A stretch of 30,064 bases of DNA. Source: a virus. Shown here piece after piece: positions 1,411-9,079 of the stretch. Location: the IMG/VR virus record IMGVR_UViG_3300044837_000119, positions 1-30,064 of that record. One strand, given 5' to 3'. Numbering within the stretch: the first letter of the stretch is position 1; each line of letters starts with the position of its first letter. The position numbers were made by a program, and so were the translations under genes. Under the pieces are notes generated by a model. That model was given only the letters and a program-made list of their open reading frames with translations. It ran no database searches and was not told the origin of the DNA.

Positions 1411-3321
1411 ATGGCCGGAACGTTTATCGATGCATTGCCCGCGGCACCATCAGCACAATTAACTGATGTGTTTCCCGTTGACCAACTTCCGGGTCCTGTT
1501 ACCAAACAAGAATCAAATGCTCAGCTTTTATCACTGTTTGAAGCAAATATTGTAATAACGCCTTCAAACTTCAGCGGAATATTGCCTCCTTCAAAAGGGG
1601 GAACTGGTATTAATAATGGGGTCAATACTCTTACTTTAGGTGGAAATTTAACCACATCAGGTGCTTTTGCAAGTACCTTTACGATGACAAATACAACAAA
1701 CGTAACTTTCCCTACCAGTGGCACATTGGCAACCGTTGGGGGCAGTGTTACCAGCGTATCAGGAACCACAAATAGGATCACCTCCACGGGAGGCACGACC
1801 CCTGTTATAGACATATCAGCTGCCTACGTAGGTCAAAGCTCTATAACTACACTAGGAACGATAGCAACAGGGGTTTGGCAGGGAACCATAATAAGCCCAA
1901 CCTATGGGGGAACAGGAGTCAACAATGGGACTTCTACCTTAACGCTTGCAGGAAACCTTGCAACCAGCGGTGCTTTTGCGTCCACATTTACAATGACAGG
2001 ACCTACTTCGGTGACGTTCCCAACGTCCGGAACTCTGTCAACAACAACAGGTACTGTTACTAGTGTATCTGGCACGTTAAACCGCATTACTTCAACGGGT
2101 AGCACGACCCCTGTTATCGATATATCGGCCTCTTATGTTGGTCAAAGTTCGATAACCACTCTTGGGACTGTGGCAACCGGTGTTTGGCAAGGCACTGTGA
2201 TAGGTGGAACTTACGGTGGAACTGGGGTAAACAATGGTGCATCTACGATTACTCTTGGAGGCTCTCTAACCACATCGGGCGCATTCGCCAGCACTTTTAC
2301 AATGACAGGTGCAACAAACGTAACATTCCCAACAAGTGGAACTTTGTCTACTACGACTGGAACTGTGACCAGCGTATCGGGAACCACAAACCGAATTACA
2401 TCCACAGGTGGTGCAACGCCTGTGATTGATATCTCAGCCAGTTATGTAGGCCAATCATCAATTACCACCCTGGGAACAATAACCACGGGCATATGGACTG
2501 GAACTACAATTGCGGTTGCAAATGGGGGCACAGGTATTACAGCATTTGGTACGGGCGTAGCTACGGCCTTAGGTGCAAACGTGACAGGTTCAGGAGGTAT
2601 CGCCCTCGCTACCAGTCCAACTTTTGTTACTCCTGTCTTAGGAACTCCTACATCTGGAGTTGCAACAAATTTGACATCTACTGGTGGCGTAAGAAGCTTT
2701 CAAGTATTTACTTCTGGCTCGTCTGCTACTTATACCAAACCTGCAAATGTAACATCAATTATGGTTGAGGTTATTGGAGGCGGAGGTGGTGGTGGTGGAA
2801 GTACGGGGGCTGCTTCTTCGGCTTCTCATGGAGCGGGAGGAGGCGGAGGTGGTTACGCAAGATTATATATAGCGAGTGCATCCGGAACCTATACCTATAC
2901 AGTTGGCGCTGCAGGAACTGCAGGTTCCTCTGGCGGAGGAACAGGGGGAACTGGTGGAACAACTACATTTAGCGCATCTTCCTTGCAAGCTACAGGTGGT
3001 GTAGGAGGAACAGGTTTAACTTCAGTTTTAAATACAGGAGCTGGCAGTGCACCAGGTGGCGATGCTGGTGTTGGCTCAAATGGTAACATTAATGCCCAGG
3101 GAACGCCTGGAGAGTGGTCTCTGGTGGTGCTTGGTAATTTTGGCGGAGGGAATGGTGGCTCTTCTTTCTATGGCGGAGGCGCTCGTTTACCATCGGCAAT
3201 TGGGGCAGGAACAAATGGTGGAAATTATGGAGGTGGCGGCTCTGGCGGCACATCAACCACAGTAAATGCGGCCGGAGGCACAGGAGGCGCAGGGCTTATA
3301 GTGGTCTGGGAATTTTCATAA
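1411..3321 (+). CDS. Glycine-rich tail fibre / adhesin with 103-residue repeats
   Basis: This 636-residue protein has three parts. Residues 1-60 form an N-terminal module with an ALP...TDVFPVDQ motif that the next gene also has (ALP...TDIFPVVQ), probably for attachment to the virion. Residues ~63-375 contain three consecutive 103-residue repeats, each opening GGTG(I/V)NNG and containing GAFASTFTMT, FPTSGTL, TPVIDIS and YVGQSSITTLGT, plus the start of a fourth. From residue ~430 the C-terminus has long Gly runs (GGGGGGGGSTG, GGGGGGYARLY, TYTYTVGAAGTAG) and ends GLIVVWEFS. This matches Gly-rich phage adhesin domains, where Gly-rich loops contact host receptors. Host specificity is inferred, not shown. 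Confidence 0.8.
   Translation: MAGTFIDALPAAPSAQLTDVFPVDQLPGPVTKQESNAQLLSLFEANIVITPSNFSGILPPSKGGTGINNGVNTLTLGGNLTTSGAFASTFTMTNTTNVTFPTSGTLATVGGSVTSVSGTTNRITSTGGTTPVIDISAAYVGQSSITTLGTIATGVWQGTIISPTYGGTGVNNGTSTLTLAGNLATSGAFASTFTMTGPTSVTFPTSGTLSTTTGTVTSVSGTLNRITSTGSTTPVIDISASYVGQSSITTLGTVATGVWQGTVIGGTYGGTGVNNGASTITLGGSLTTSGAFASTFTMTGATNVTFPTSGTLSTTTGTVTSVSGTTNRITSTGGATPVIDISASYVGQSSITTLGTITTGIWTGTTIAVANGGTGITAFGTGVATALGANVTGSGGIALATSPTFVTPVLGTPTSGVATNLTSTGGVRSFQVFTSGSSATYTKPANVTSIMVEVIGGGGGGGGSTGAASSASHGAGGGGGGYARLYIASASGTYTYTVGAAGTAGSSGGGTGGTGGTTTFSASSLQATGGVGGTGLTSVLNTGAGSAPGGDAGVGSNGNINAQGTPGEWSLVVLGNFGGGNGGSSFYGGGARLPSAIGAGTNGGNYGGGGSGGTSTTVNAAGGTGGAGLIVVWEFS
1597..2523 (+). repeat. Three tandem 309-bp coding repeats in the fibre gene
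   Basis: The GGTG(I/V)NNG-coding segment recurs at 1597, 1906 and 2215 and a related GGTGIT segment at 2524, an exact 309-bp (103-codon) period each time. The copies differ at many third positions but keep the protein sequence, so they are older duplications held by selection rather than a recent copying event. Such repeats can change in number by recombination and so change shaft length. Confidence 0.85.
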
Positions 3322-3332
3322 GGAATTGAATC

Positions 3333-4250
3333 ATGGGTATTAAAATAAGTGCTTTGCCATCGATAGTTACCCCTGCATTAACAGACATATTTCCGGTCGT
3401 ACAAGCTGGAGTTACTTATAAAGAAACTGTCACTCAATTAAGCGCTTTGATTGGAACAGTCGCAGTCACAACGATTACAGGTACTGCCGATCAAGTAATT
3501 GCATCAGCATCAGTTGGCCCCGTTACACTAAGCTTGCCCCAATCAATAGCAACAACAAGCTCTCCAACATTTGCAAATTTAACATTGACAAACCCATATA
3601 TAGCCGGTGCGGGCGGATTACATAGTTTTCAGGTATTTACAACTGGCACCGCTGCAACTTATACGCGCCCTGTCAATGTGAGTTCTATATTAGTTGAGGT
3701 ATTAGGTGGAGGTGGTGCCGGAGGAGGTGCCGTTAGTGGTGCTTTAGATCACATAGGAACTGGTGCAGGAGGGGGCTCCGGTGGATATGCAAGATTATTA
3801 ATACCAAGTGCTGCCAGCACATATACCTATACTGTAGGCGCAGGTGGAACAGCAGGAGCCGCCGGTAACAATCCTGGTGGAAATGGTGGAACAACTACCT
3901 TTGGTGCATCATTACAAGCTACGGGCGGTTCAGGAGGCGATGGTGGGCCTGCTGTTTCATCAGCAGTTTCAGGAATATCTATCGGTGGCGCAGGAGGCGT
4001 TGGCTCTAGTGGAACTATTAATGTTACTGGTCAATCAGGATTCGGAGGAATTAATTCCCAAGGCGTAGGCATTACTGGCATGGGTGGTGCGAGCCATTAT
4101 GGTGCCGGAGGGGCTTCAGCGTACGGCACATCCAATGGCAATATAGGTGGAAGCTATGGCTCAGGCGGTTCCGGTGGTCTTGCAGTCAATAGCAGCCAGA
4201 CAGGAGGGGCAGGTTCTCCTGGTTTAATCATCATTTGGGAGTTCGCCTAG
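3333..4250 (+). CDS. Second glycine-rich tail fibre / adhesin (short paralogue)
   Basis: The 305-residue product is a short relative of the preceding fibre. It shares the N-terminal module (ALP..TDIFPVVQAG) and the whole C-terminal Gly-rich domain: HSFQVFTTG.AATYTRPVNV, EVLGGGGAGGG, GGYARLLIPSA, TYTYTVGAGGTAG, and a terminal GLIIIWEFA. It lacks the 103-residue repeat shaft, with only a short stretch (TITGTADQVIASAS) in its place. It starts 11 bases after the previous stop behind AAGGAATTGAATC. Two adhesins with the same attachment end and different Gly-rich tips suggest alternative receptor binding. Confidence 0.78.
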   Translation: MGIKISALPSIVTPALTDIFPVVQAGVTYKETVTQLSALIGTVAVTTITGTADQVIASASVGPVTLSLPQSIATTSSPTFANLTLTNPYIAGAGGLHSFQVFTTGTAATYTRPVNVSSILVEVLGGGGAGGGAVSGALDHIGTGAGGGSGGYARLLIPSAASTYTYTVGAGGTAGAAGNNPGGNGGTTTFGASLQATGGSGGDGGPAVSSAVSGISIGGAGGVGSSGTINVTGQSGFGGINSQGVGITGMGGASHYGAGGASAYGTSNGNIGGSYGSGGSGGLAVNSSQTGGAGSPGLIIIWEFA

Positions 4251-4452: not shown

Positions 4453-5055
4453 CTAAGTCTGTGGTTCAACTTTATCAAATAAGTATGTGCCTTTAGTTGC
4501 GTAGCGTCCTAGAATTTTATATATGGTCATGCGGGACACTTTTAGCGAACTAGCAGTCTTCTTTATACTCTCGCCGTCTTCTATCATTGCCTTAGCCTTA
4601 GCAACAAGCATTGGGGTAACCTTTAAAGGACGACCTCCTGTGCGGCCTTCTTTCTTTGCAGCATCTATACCTTCACGCTGACGGGCTTTTATCATTGTTC
4701 GTTCAAACTCAGCAAAAGACCCCATCATCTGAAGCATAAGGGTTGAAAAGGCGTCTTTTTGGCCTGTGAACGTGAGATTTTCCTTTATAAACCGAACTTC
4801 GACGCCTTTTGTGATCAAACAATCTACTATTTCTTGTAGGTCACGCAAGTTTCGTGCCAGCCTGTCTATGCTTTCAACGACTAGAGTATCTCCTTGCCTC
4901 ACATATGCTATGCAGGCGGCGAGTCCTTCTCTATCTTTGGATGATCCGCTCATTTTGTCGACAAACTCCTTGTCTAGTTTAACTCCCTGTAACTGTCGTG
5001 CGGTATTTTGGGTGTGTGTTGATACTCGGATGTAGCCTACAACTTGGTGTGTCAT
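4453..5055 (-). CDS. Small serine recombinase (resolvase/invertase family)
   Basis: The protein is about 200 residues, the family size. It has the catalytic segment GYIRVSTHTQN (Arg10, Ser12 as nucleophile), the conserved GDTLVVESIDRLARN block that holds the active-site Asp and Arg residues, then FAEFERTMIKARQREGI leading into the long E-helix, and a GRTGGRP hinge. A C-terminal helix-turn-helix (SIKKTASSLKVSRMTIYKIL) completes a Hin/Gin/Tn3-resolvase layout. ATG 5055 is preferred over 5073 because it overlaps the upstream stop (TAATG), implying coupled translation. It ends near two paralogous fibre genes, so a role in fibre switching or multimer resolution is possible. No crossover site was identified by eye. 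Confidence 0.9.
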   Translation of the reverse strand: MTHQVVGYIRVSTHTQNTARQLQGVKLDKEFVDKMSGSSKDREGLAACIAYVRQGDTLVVESIDRLARNLRDLQEIVDCLITKGVEVRFIKENLTFTGQKDAFSTLMLQMMGSFAEFERTMIKARQREGIDAAKKEGRTGGRPLKVTPMLVAKAKAMIEDGESIKKTASSLKVSRMTIYKILGRYATKGTYLFDKVEPQT

Positions 5056-5273
5056 TACGTCATTCTCGCACATCGATCACATATCTTTGTTAAGCATTCT
5101 CCATCGCCTGAACAGTCTTGATCGCAATAGGTATCAATCATGGATTGTAATTTTGTCATTATATCGTTACCAGAGCTTACTCCAGGGGGAAAGCCATTAT
5201 GGGAAAATGACCAATAAACTGGTGTTATAAGTTTCTGTATTTCTTGTAACTCTTCTTTAGTAAAGTCGTTCAT
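5055..5273 (-). CDS. MNDFT-family small protein 4, 72 aa
   Basis: This is the last of four adjacent paralogues that begin MNDFT followed by basic/acidic residues (here MNDFTKEELQEIQKLI). The N-terminal half looks helical and includes MIDTYCDQDC, and the C-terminus has a second Cys cluster (CLTKICDRC), so a zinc-binding knuckle is likely. Its stop overlaps the recombinase start. Proteins of this shape are common in phages, but I know of no established function. Confidence 0.75.
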   Translation of the reverse strand: MNDFTKEELQEIQKLITPVYWSFSHNGFPPGVSSGNDIMTKLQSMIDTYCDQDCSGDGECLTKICDRCARMT

Positions 5274-5480
5274 CTATCTCTCCGGGAATGGAGGCAATGG
5301 CTTGTCCAGGTAAACTAGATTCTCTATGGCTTCAATAACCCAATAGATACCATCTTTTTTCTCTACTGGAACATATTTCCCAAGCTCCATAATTACCGAA
5401 GTGGCGACACCCATGACAAGCAATAGGCGCTCATTTAAATGATTAATTCTTTTTATTTCTTCTTTTGTGAAATCATTCAT
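5274..5480 (-). CDS. MNDFT-family small protein 3, 68 aa (no Cys cluster)
   Basis: The start is taken at the MNDFTKEEIKRI methionine (5480), not the upstream ATG at 5582, because this start matches the three sister genes and the upstream extension would overlap the previous gene heavily. The product keeps the helical N-terminal segment but lacks the C-terminal CxxC motif; it ends PLPPFPER. Loss of the metal site in one of four copies suggests divergence of function. It overlaps the preceding gene by eight bases. Confidence 0.7.
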   Translation of the reverse strand: MNDFTKEEIKRINHLNERLLLVMGVATSVIMELGKYVPVEKKDGIYWVIEAIENLVYLDKPLPPFPER

Positions 5481-5703
5481 AAAGTTCACCACATTTTTTA
5501 CATTTATTGGCCTTCGTAGTTTTCTCACCTTGATAATGAATGTGGTATCGACCATCATCATCATGATCGCAATAATTATCAATCATTTCTAAAACCTTGC
5601 TTCTTATGTTTATGAGTGTTTCTTTGCGAGTATCTAAAATTTCCATTGAATAGAATAAAGCGCATTCAATTTGTTTTAGATCTTCTTTTGTAAAGTCATT
5701 CAT
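5473..5703 (-). CDS. MNDFT-family small protein 2, 76 aa
   Basis: The protein starts MNDFTKEDLKQIECAL at 5703 through an ATGA overlap with the upstream stop. It has the family layout: a helical region, the MIDNYCDHDDD segment, and a C-terminal NKCKKCGEL zinc-knuckle-like motif. The position of the His and Cys residues (CDH then CxxC) suggests one bound metal ion. Function is unknown. Confidence 0.75.
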   Translation of the reverse strand: MNDFTKEDLKQIECALFYSMEILDTRKETLINIRSKVLEMIDNYCDHDDDGRYHIHYQGEKTTKANKCKKCGELYE

Positions 5704-5912
5704 TTTTCCAGCACCCCACATGTAGTACATTTGAAGTGGGCTTCGCTAGATGTTCTGAATTCATGATCGCAATAGTTCATAATCATATCTTGTATTTTAT
5801 GTGACAAATAAATAGTCCCTTCATCTGTTGCTTGGTCAATGCCTACTTCATTAAGTCTATTAACAGACCAGCATGCGACTAAAATTAATTCATCCCGTGT
5901 AAAGTCATTCAT
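5700..5912 (-). CDS. MNDFT-family small protein 1, 70 aa
   Basis: This first copy of the cluster begins MNDFTRDELILVACW, contains MIMNYCDHEF and ends with KCTTCGVLEK, the same CDH...CxxC pattern as copy 2. It overlaps the gene upstream by eight bases and the next copy by four. The arrangement shows tandem duplication within one operon. Function is unknown. Confidence 0.75.
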   Translation of the reverse strand: MNDFTRDELILVACWSVNRLNEVGIDQATDEGTIYLSHKIQDMIMNYCDHEFRTSSEAHFKCTTCGVLEK

Positions 5913-6393: not shown

Positions 6394-6600
6394 GACAATA
6401 GGCAGGTGCTGCCCCTGCTTTGCTCGGTTCTACCTAAGCGATATAACCGCAATTCTTAGGCTAACATAAACAATGACCACTAGTATTCCCGTGCTTATCG
6501 GGCTAGGGCAATCAACATGATCCGATGTTACCATCGGCTATTGCCGTCTTGTATAGAGCCTCTTATGCGAAGTCGCGTCACTGTCCGCGATGCTATTGTC
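6394..6600 (-). ncRNA. Large structured RNA of the 6.4-7.0 kb array (RNA 4)
   Basis: On the minus strand the segment is closed by a perfect 8-bp stem (GACAATAG at 6593-6600 with CTATTGTC at 6394-6401), as a tRNA acceptor would be. Next to it is a 5-bp arm TCGCG/CGCGA (6573-6590), matching the D-arm position, and at the 3' side an arm GCAGG/CCTGC (6402-6418) whose loop is not TTC-type. Inside are a hairpin with a GTAA tetraloop (6522-6537) nested in GGCAAT/ATTGCC, and further stems. At ~207 nt it is too long for a tRNA. It lies just upstream of the 6371 gene and shares its 5' box with RNAs 2 and 3. Confidence 0.5.
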
Positions 6601-6607
6601 ATAATTG

Positions 6608-6728
6608 GAGACAGGGCTACGGCTTTCACCTAGATTTCCCGCTTCACAGGCGGGTGATTTACGGTCTTATCACGTGTTATCCCCGCATTACATCTACCCC
6701 GTCATATTCTGTCCACGCTGTTATTGTC
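6608..6728 (-). ncRNA. Structured RNA 3 with a His-type anticodon-like hairpin
   Basis: The minus-strand segment starts with the shared box (TATGACAATAACAGCGTGGA). It contains a perfect 5-bp hairpin CCCGC/GCGGG with the 7-base loop CTGTGAA (6638-6654), which has the exact form of a tRNA anticodon arm with a GTG (His) anticodon. I cannot fit a matching acceptor stem or standard T-arm around it, so it is not called as a tRNA. The 3' boundary is approximate. Confidence 0.35.
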
Positions 6729-6744
6729 ATAATTGGGTGAAAGT

Positions 6745-6862
6745 TGACAACAGGAAGGAATCGAACCTTCTATCCCGAATAACGGAGCTGATTTACGCAT
6801 AAAGGAATCGGGTAACCCTCTGCTACCGTCCATCTTGTGTCACCGTCCACAACGCTATTGTC
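6745..6862 (-). ncRNA. tRNA-like RNA 2 with canonical T-arm and enlarged middle
   Basis: An 8-bp end stem (GACAATAG 6855-6862 with CTGTTGTC 6745-6752, one G-T pair) leads directly into a canonical T-arm (GAAGG-TTCGATT-CCTTC, 6753-6769). A D-arm-like stem TTGTG/CACAA lies at 6835-6852. The middle is about 65 nt instead of ~30, with GGTAG/TTACC and a long variable-arm-like stem CCCGA/TCGGG. No anticodon loop with the standard T33 fits well. It may be an aberrant class II tRNA, an intron-bearing tRNA or a tRNA mimic. Confidence 0.5.
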
Positions 6863-6868
6863 ATAATG

Positions 6869-6972
6869 GACCAGAAGGATAGGACTTGAACCTATCAGGC
6901 GGAAGCTATCACGTTCTAGCTTAGTCCGCGGAATGGCTTAATTCTGCATCTCAATCATGCGTCTTTCTGGTC
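6869..6972 (-). ncRNA. tRNA-like RNA 1 (first in array)
   Basis: The ends pair over 10 bp with one mismatch (GACCAGAAAG 6963-6972 with CCTTCTGGTC 6869-6878). It has a canonical T-arm (ATAGG-TTCAAGT-CCTAT, 6879-6895), a D-arm-like hairpin GCAT/ATGC (6946-6960), and a long variable-arm-like hairpin AAGCTA/TAGCTT within GCGG/CCGC. The anticodon position holds GAAT-TAAGCC-ATTC, a 4-bp stem with a 6-base loop, which is not standard. A consensus promoter ends just before its 5' end, so transcription should start almost at base 6972. Confidence 0.55.
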
Positions 6973-7405: not shown

Positions 7406-8324
7406 ATACTGATTCTTTTTGTGGGTTTATTATTTCGAACATTGTTCCATTGTAGACAAATTCATTGGTTCCTCGTAAATGCTCTTTTACATCAAAATCA
7501 ATTCCTGATTTCATGCGTCTTTGATGTGAGGCAACCCAATGCAAAATTGGCCTTTTCCTTCCGGTTTCTGTCATTGGAAGTTCTCTGGAATAAAATAGAC
7601 TCTTGATTTGCTCTTCATGGACAGCAAAGGTGGCTTTTGCAATACCTTCTTTTGCTCTCACGTTCCAAAGGTGTCTTCTGTCTTGATAAAATTGAATGGT
7701 ATTTGATGTCCAGGCTGAATAATAATCTCTGGTGTGTTTGGTTCCTTCCGATCCACCTTCAAGCATGCGCGGTCTATGATGGTGTAATATTTGGCGTCCA
7801 GTGTTAGGATCGGAAATAATCACGGGCATAAAGCATGATTCTATTAAGCCATTTTTATCGATAACAACATACGTGCCGCATCCCTCTACTTGAGTGTTAC
7901 CAAAGAATATTTGCGTTACGCGAAATATTTTACCAGGACGAGGGGCTTTCCATCCTTTTGGCAAAAACTTAACGCGCTCAACATAAAAACTCCATAGATA
8001 TTCAGATATAGTTCCAGGATTTGAAGAAAGAATAGCATAATCTGGTATACCGTCATTAACAGGATCAATGTGTTGTGTGCTAGAAAGTGTTTCCCCATCC
8101 TCTTCAAAGGTAACTTGGCAAACACGGTCATTTGATGGGAAGTAACACCCTAAACTACGTAACCTCGTAAATAACTCCATATCAAAACGACAGTTTTTAG
8201 GGCCACGCTTTTCTGGTTTAATATTTGTTTCATATAACCCGATTAAACTACTGACTACTAAGTCCTCGAATTCATCTGTTTCCCAATACGGGCTGTATTC
8301 ACTTAATGCAGGAGCTAATATCAT
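7404..8324 (-). CDS. Conserved-looking phage protein of unknown function, 306 aa
   Basis: The protein is soluble and mixed alpha/beta with no membrane segment. Its C-terminus (RKRPILHWVASHQRRM... VKEHLRGTNEFVYNGTMFEI) resembles a short C-terminal module, with LHWV.xHxRR followed by HLRG and a small beta hairpin, that recurs in uncharacterised phage proteins. The conserved-looking His/Arg cluster there could bind nucleic acid. It is the last gene of the long leftward operon and overlaps the previous gene by 26 bases. No function can be assigned from sequence. Confidence 0.7.
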   Translation of the reverse strand: MILAPALSEYSPYWETDEFEDLVVSSLIGLYETNIKPEKRGPKNCRFDMELFTRLRSLGCYFPSNDRVCQVTFEEDGETLSSTQHIDPVNDGIPDYAILSSNPGTISEYLWSFYVERVKFLPKGWKAPRPGKIFRVTQIFFGNTQVEGCGTYVVIDKNGLIESCFMPVIISDPNTGRQILHHHRPRMLEGGSEGTKHTRDYYSAWTSNTIQFYQDRRHLWNVRAKEGIAKATFAVHEEQIKSLFYSRELPMTETGRKRPILHWVASHQRRMKSGIDFDVKEHLRGTNEFVYNGTMFEIINPQKESV

Positions 8325-8969: not shown

Positions 8970-9010
8970 TTATTCCTCCAACAAGCCCTTACATCTTAAT
9001 CATAACTAGG

Positions 9011-9079
9011 TCTCCGTAATGGAATCTAACCATTGACCTTCCGCGAAAAGGCGGCACTCTAACACTGAGCTAACGGAGA
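9011..9079 (-). tRNA. Degenerate or noncanonical tRNA
   Basis: The minus strand folds as a tRNA: a perfect 7-bp acceptor (TCTCCGT 9073-9079 with ACGGAGA 9011-9017), TA at positions 8-9, a D-arm GCTC-AGTGTTA-GAGT, and a T-arm AATGG-TTAGATT-CCATT. It has several faults: the anticodon arm can form only CCGC/GCGG with a 6-base loop (CTTTTC), the T-loop has A where C56 is expected, and the total is 69 nt. The amino-acid identity cannot be assigned. It lies between two genes of the leftward operon. It may be a pseudo-tRNA or a tRNA altered to escape a nuclease. Confidence 0.55.

Follow-up and report, generated by a model that had tools for sequence, protein, structure and literature searches.

Candidate phage tRNA-like RNAs with a constant acceptor and elbow frame and a variable domain in place of the anticodon arm

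The window analyzed here is a 30,064-nucleotide (nt) stretch of virus DNA (IMG/VR record IMGVR_UViG_3300044837_000119, positions 1 to 30,064), and the element in question is an array of four structured RNAs resembling transfer RNA (tRNA) at 6394-6972, all encoded on the minus strand. The array lies downstream of a sigma-70-type promoter, TTGACA-16-TATACT (7006-6979, minus strand, 11 of 12 consensus matches). RNA1 (6867-6972) is closed by an 8-base-pair (bp) end stem, GACCAGAA/TTCTGGTC, and comprises a D-like arm (6946-6960), an anticodon-like arm (6931-6944) with the 6-nt loop TAAGCC, a long variable-like arm (6899-6929), and a T-arm, GGTTCAAGTCC (6878-6896), with the loop TTCAAGT, followed by an encoded CCA at the 3' end. 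RNA2 (6746-6862) contains the acceptor GACAATAG/CTGTTGTC, a D-arm (6835-6852) with the loop GACGGTGA, a 64-nt variable domain and a T-arm, GGTTCGATTCC (6754-6770), with the loop TTCGATT. RNA3 (6606-6703) combines a 7-bp acceptor, GACGGGG/CCCTGTC, with T73, an encoded CCA, a tRNA-His-type anticodon arm, CCCGC-CTGTGAA-GCGGG (6638-6654), ~22 additional nt ahead of the D-like arm, and a T-like arm with one mismatch, CTAGG-TGAAAGC-CGTAG (6617-6633). RNA4 (6394-6600) has the acceptor GACAATAG/CTATTGTC, a D-arm (6573-6590) with the loop GACAGTGA, a 154-nt variable domain, a GTAA tetraloop and a 5-bp/7-nt T-arm, GCAGG-GGCAGCA-CCTGC (6402-6418). The 8-bp end stems of RNA2 and RNA4 are extended by a ninth T-A pair.

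The original prediction had pointed to the promoter (without naming the strand), the closing stems of RNAs 1, 2 and 4, the canonical T-arms of RNA1 and RNA2, the His-type hairpin of RNA3 and the tetraloop of RNA4, all of which are present; it had overlooked the T-like arms of RNA3 and RNA4, and had not recognized RNA2 and RNA4 as one widespread family. Of the three ATGACAATA(G/A) boxes that it took for 5' ends, two indeed form the 5' side of the acceptor in RNA2 and RNA4, but the third, TGACAATAACAGCGTGGACAG (6709-6729, minus strand), stands ahead of RNA3 as an unpaired remnant or leader of the family 5' strand. ARAGORN called no tRNA or transfer-messenger RNA (tmRNA) within the array, nothing in the array matched Rfam at the gathering thresholds, and a permissive Rfam search connected only RNA3 with the tRNA model, at a sub-threshold 19.3 bits (cut-off 29). 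Both RNA2 and RNA4 fit a full descriptor consisting of an 8-bp acceptor, a D-arm and an abutting T-arm, which occurs by chance 0.25 times per Markov-shuffled window and not at all when either conserved loop is required. RNA1, a type-II-like relative of tRNA, and RNA3, nearest to tRNA-His, resemble tRNA more than these two do but have a less certain status; both favor tRNA genes as the origin of the array.

Relatives of RNA2 and RNA4 were collected from IMG/VR by separate pattern scans of the 5' half and the 3' half, and all counts are lower bounds; in total, the family was traced to more than 60 distinct units. The two scans intersect in at least dozens of contigs (loci are designated here by L numbers), and a full-structure filter retained at least 68 matches, or at least 66 once two that spanned two units were removed. 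The shared frame starts with an acceptor-like stem, GRCAATMG/CKATTGYC, of 8 bp, often with the ninth T-A pair, followed by 2 nt and a 5-bp D-like arm with the same loop as in RNA4; a 5-bp T-like arm with the loop TGCAATT is directly stacked on the acceptor, resulting in a 13-bp 8/5 branch. A T at position -1 and a G1-C72 pair are typical of the units, A73 is found in 49 of the 66, and several encode ACCA exactly at 73-76. A standard anticodon arm is absent from the family, including its shortest members (85-93 nt).

Base-pair covariation was assessed in 38 distinct frames, picked by sequence patterns in which most stem positions are free and no pairing is required. In these frames, 97.8% of the cells are paired, compared to 30-46% in slid-partner controls, and both sides have changed in 12 of the 19 frame pairs, with the acceptor, D and T stems all covarying. 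Divergent acceptors, GTTAGCAG/CTGCTAAC in L262 and GAGACGCT/AGCGTCTC in L274, still pair, and therefore the stem counts more than its letters. When the units were compared with Rfam 15 at the gathering score, no family matched them, and all matches obtained were to true tRNAs lying beyond the units and to a single abiF RNA at another place. The family to which RNA2 and RNA4 belong is absent from Rfam. The abiF-type RNA (RF03085) lies at 3893-3937 of L294 (minus strand), a contig that also bears a family unit.

In tRNA, position 18 touches position 55, and position 19 touches position 56. For the analysis of this elbow, the D-loop was read as GA-C-R18-G19-T-GA, and T-loops were placed by pairing rather than by sequence, although the TGCAATT pattern had served to retrieve some of the loci. 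All 48 frames with A18 have G55, and both frames with G18, namely RNA2 of the window and another unit, in L207, have U55, without a single exception overall. Of the 96 distinct matches to a control pattern with one base changed (loop ACGGTGA), only 2 were complete frames, compared to 48 of 83 for ACAGTGA, the locus-fetching scans differing slightly in the acceptor bases allowed; no additional G18/U55 members were found in the ACGGTGA scan. The same double change occurs in a canonical tRNA-Met of the L316 array (D-loop AGTAGTA, T-loop TGCAATT), the sole one among ~45 distinct tRNAs with this T-loop, which ties the RNA family to tRNA proper.

The anticodon arm is replaced by a middle domain of 32-160 nt, the last base of which is A in 65 of 66 units, and these domains sort into ~50 types of unrelated sequence. 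In the type with the most members (L161, L218, L229 and L294), the middle forms an H-type pseudoknot together with two hairpins; in the full-length RNA of this type, 99.4% of the cells are paired, and of the 15 compensated pairs, 3 belong to the two pseudoknot helices. Another type (L247, L309 and L393) has a third arm with four compensated pairs. Such conservation and covariation within subfamilies indicate that the middle is under selection. Compared with shuffled middles, the real ones have a stronger helix with its 3' strand ending immediately 5' of the T-arm; this holds over all units (Kolmogorov-Smirnov p ~4e-7). An H-type pseudoknot beside the T-arm was also considered as a general feature, but it is only weakly enriched (17% of all units at p<=0.05) and is claimed solely for the best-populated type. 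RNA1 (TAAGCC) and the L314 unit (TTAACC) both have an anticodon-like loop of six nucleotides. In L316 (3056-3250), the variable domain of a unit holds most of a second tRNA-like RNA, with D-arm GCTCAGTCTGGTAGAGC and T-arm GCTGGTTCAAATCCAGC, whose own anticodon arm is expanded as well, so that tRNA-like elements are nested.

A counterpart of the window array is found in L036, where the same neighboring gene of 306 amino acids (54% identity) adjoins the same array at the same place, with a TTGACT..TATACT promoter, an RNA1 orthologue (5620-5735) and two family members. Between the two copies of RNA1, the loop TAAGCC is identical, whereas the anticodon-like stem changes from GAAT/ATTC to GCAT/ATGC and the T-stem from GATAGG/CCTATC to GATTGA/TCAATC, in both cases by compensatory substitution; the TGAAAGC type of T-loop found in RNA3 reappears in the L036 copy of RNA1. 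Two outcomes had been named in advance as fatal to the reading of these RNAs as tRNA derivatives, clean tRNA calls and loss of the stems in related genomes; no clean call was obtained, and the stems are kept in the relatives.

Elsewhere, units occur in two settings. Single units lie directly 3' of the gene for the single-stranded DNA-binding protein (ssb) in L014 and L085 (the latter the same contig as L040), and the order ssb-[unit]-cas4, where the downstream gene encodes a Cas4-like exonuclease, recurs in L085, L101 and L161; many relatives of this operon contain no unit. Other units have neighbors with roles in replication and recombination (Sak4, RecT, SSB, Cas4, replication initiators) or adjoin the large terminase, and the genes on either side mostly share the strand of the unit. 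In the second setting (L247, L305, L314, L316, L321 and L381), the distance between a unit and true tRNAs encoded on its strand is 3-21 nt, as is usual within tRNA arrays. The L314 array contains seven tRNAs, and just upstream is a gene with an RNA-ligase domain, a function typical of tRNA repair.

Several further observations concern these neighborhoods. In L145 (~3270-3380), the ssb-cas4 gap contains a unit-like closing stem, ATGACAATC ... GATTGTCA, with the D and T arms replaced by a TTTATATA-type tandem repeat, that is, a decayed or remodelled unit. Additional unannotated tRNA-like segments lie between and after the tRNAs of L314 (2335-2680), for example, GGCATTAA...TTAGTGCC-ACCA, and hint at further non-standard members of these arrays. 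The unit of L307 adjoins a DNA invertase, and near the L014 unit (7567-7800, minus strand) is a long CGGCTC/CGGCTA hexanucleotide repeat that encodes a low-complexity protein of the GSGSGYGY type.

The family was not detected in the cultured-phage records or the bacterial genomes sampled. Searches with blastn of ~50,000 cultured-phage records, using the array, single units and 33-nt frame queries, found no unit, although BLAST has little power with a frame this short, and matched only neighboring tRNAs or short chance stretches. Pattern scans of 754 sampled proteobacterial genomes (369 Gammaproteobacteria and 385 Alphaproteobacteria) gave only chance matches in which the frame did not continue, and no account of such an RNA turned up in a full-text search of the open-licence literature.

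The units do not present the features of a canonical tRNA (7-bp acceptor, 7-nt anticodon loop, G18G19/TTC elbow, ARAGORN or RF00005 call), although they resemble several known RNAs. The 13-bp 8/5 acceptor-T branch and 2-nt linker are those of bacterial selenocysteine tRNA (tRNASec), and the family D-stem may be extended in a similar way: its 5 bp might be continued by a tandem G-A and a CRGT tetraloop, the loop GA-CRGT-GA being readable as two G-A pairs around the tetraloop, and E. coli has CGGT at this place, as confirmed in the selC sequence (GGAAGATC-GT-CGTCTC-CGGT-GAGGCG). Unlike tRNASec, the family carries a hypervariable domain instead of the UCA anticodon arm, mostly A18/G55 instead of G18/U55, and A73 instead of G73. 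The tRNAs with a novel cloverleaf (allo-tRNAs), reportedly of 8/4 and 9/3 types from bacteria and their phages, are likewise said to have a lengthened acceptor stem, but with a 12-bp branch and a normal anticodon arm, in contrast to the 13-bp 8/5 branch and missing standard arm of the family. In tmRNA, the acceptor and T-arm half of a tRNA similarly closes a large interior with pseudoknots, whereas the family has a true D-stem and an interior that is not conserved; no conserved tag reading frame was seen in the units, and neither ARAGORN nor Rfam called a tmRNA, so this assignment was set aside. Bacterial Y RNA (YrlA) and the tRNA mimics among viral and long noncoding RNAs share the mimicry of the tRNA elbow by a noncoding RNA; their topology differs from that of the family, and no Rfam match of such families to the units was found. 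A further parallel is offered by the non-translating tRNA-Gly isoacceptors of Staphylococcus aureus, in which G18G19 is replaced and EF-Tu binding is weak (PMC4052509); there too, an elbow change removes G18G19 from RNAs excluded from translation, although these are complete, anticodon-bearing tRNAs of a bacterial chromosome with UU or CU at 18-19, where the family has AG. RNase P and RNase Z are among the known readers of the tRNA elbow, and mimicry allows viral and long noncoding RNAs to recruit tRNA enzymes (PMC4810234).

Sequence comparison establishes the frame with its pairs, the 18/55 covariation, the variable domain, the pseudoknot of one subfamily, and the position in early operons or tRNA arrays, and on these grounds we consider it moderately likely that the array encodes phage tRNA-like RNAs in which a constant acceptor and elbow frame carries a differing folded domain in place of the anticodon arm. 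Descent from tRNA, as originally proposed, is consistent with the covarying acceptor, D and T stems, the coupled elbow positions, the placement of units inside tRNA arrays, and the canonical tRNA-Met with the same elbow change. The alternative that these are intron-bearing tRNAs found no support: Rfam intron families were unmatched, the interior does not amount to a spliceable insert within a single standard tRNA, and a standard anticodon arm is missing even from the shortest members. Given that the elbow is read by RNase P and RNase Z, and that loss of G18G19 marks the non-translating tRNA-Gly, we infer release through the tRNA pathway and no decoding; the units probably mature like tRNAs and cannot decode. 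The primary transcript would be cut at the frame as a pre-tRNA, by RNase P between T-1 and G+1, and the 3' side would be trimmed by RNase Z or exonucleases, with CCA added where needed, releasing stable RNAs unable to decode.

As to the job of such RNAs, we tentatively suggest, as the likeliest option and on grounds of analogy, that they act as decoys occupying host tRNA-binding proteins, especially tRNA-cutting or tRNA-sensing defence proteins. The A18/G55 elbow would keep the RNAs out of normal modification and translation, while the variable domain would diversify under pressure from the defence proteins, hypervariability upon a fixed frame often being a sign of conflict. Such a role would explain why the elbow is fixed, why units are found in tRNA arrays and why the middles diversify. 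The usual explanations of tRNA arrays in phages are codon supply and the replacement of cut tRNAs; here, such arrays and early operons also hold tRNA-shaped, probably non-decoding RNAs, whose elbow change is conserved and whose core is different nearly every time, and which are invisible to standard tRNA and RNA-family annotation. If made, the RNAs would provide a direct handle on the host factor that reads the tRNA elbow during infection. Several points weigh against the explanation as a whole. Were an anticodon nuclease the target, anticodon-like hairpins would be expected to be common, but they are only modestly enriched (10 of 66 units vs 4.5 expected, p = 0.015). The search patterns partly fixed the acceptor and loop letters, and hence the sequence conservation of these elements is overstated. 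In addition, the RNA could act differently in the early operon and in the tRNA array. The complete proposal, that of a widespread phage family, undescribed in the sources searched, whose constant elbow and acceptor frame displays a fast-changing domain as diversifying tRNA decoys against host tRNA-targeting immunity, is on balance doubtful.

The main rival, which we regard as rather unlikely, holds that the units are tRNA-scaffolded regulatory RNAs, in which the frame only protects and matures the molecule and the variable domain does phage-specific work by protein binding, antisense pairing or sensing. The ~50 unrelated middles on one frame, conserved and covarying within a subfamily, are what this rival would predict, yet the elbow-building loops are the most conserved elements, beyond the apparent needs of a scaffold, and in the shortest units the middle domain is nearly nil. 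The units might also serve as tRNA punctuation, that is, as RNase P and RNase Z sites that split polycistronic phage transcripts, with the excised RNA left jobless. Their location in intergenic operon gaps, as with ssb, as well as between tRNAs, and the shared strand of the flanking genes agree with such a role; it is nevertheless improbable in view of the many operon relatives that do without a unit, the sufficiency of a plain tRNA or RNase site for this purpose, and the conserved, covarying middles and tandem units that it leaves unexplained.

Aminoacylated odd tRNAs, akin to tRNASec or to allo-tRNA suppressors and devoted to special codons or a non-ribosomal reaction, would fit the 8/5 branch and the possibly extended D-stem with a CRGT tetraloop, A73 and the CCA encoded in some units, the His anticodon arm kept in RNA3, and a CTA-containing anticodon-like loop in L014. 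There is little chance of this, because the units have no common anticodon arm, their unrelated middles range from 32 to 160 nt, and G55 is not normal for the ribosome and EF-Tu. Finally, conserved ends, subterminal hairpins and unrelated cargo, positions that differ between phages, and repeated copies in one genome are reminiscent of a DNA-level element with tRNA-arm-like ends and varying cargo, such as a short IS200/IS605-derived transposon with hairpin ends or a miniature inverted-repeat transposable element. This seems very improbable given that the orientation follows the surrounding operon, that the distance to neighboring tRNAs is that of tRNA genes, and that the acceptor strands covary, G-T pairs are tolerated and the 18/55 loops covary, all of which is RNA-like.

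Other features of the window lie outside the array. At 9009-9079 (minus strand) is an isolated tRNA, which scores 42.6 bits against RF00005 and for which ARAGORN reports an incomplete anticodon (tt), meaning that the anticodon loop is shortened. Adjoining the RNA array at 5055-5912 (minus strand) are four tandem small open reading frames (ORFs), each with MNDFT(K/R)(E/D) near the start, which form a local paralogous array of unknown proteins. A serine recombinase of the DNA-invertase type (phrog_125; 4453-5073, minus strand) adjoins two glycine-rich repetitive ORFs (1411-4250, plus strand) that resemble tail-fibre or collagen-like genes, and together with the recombinase these might constitute an invertible host-range cassette.
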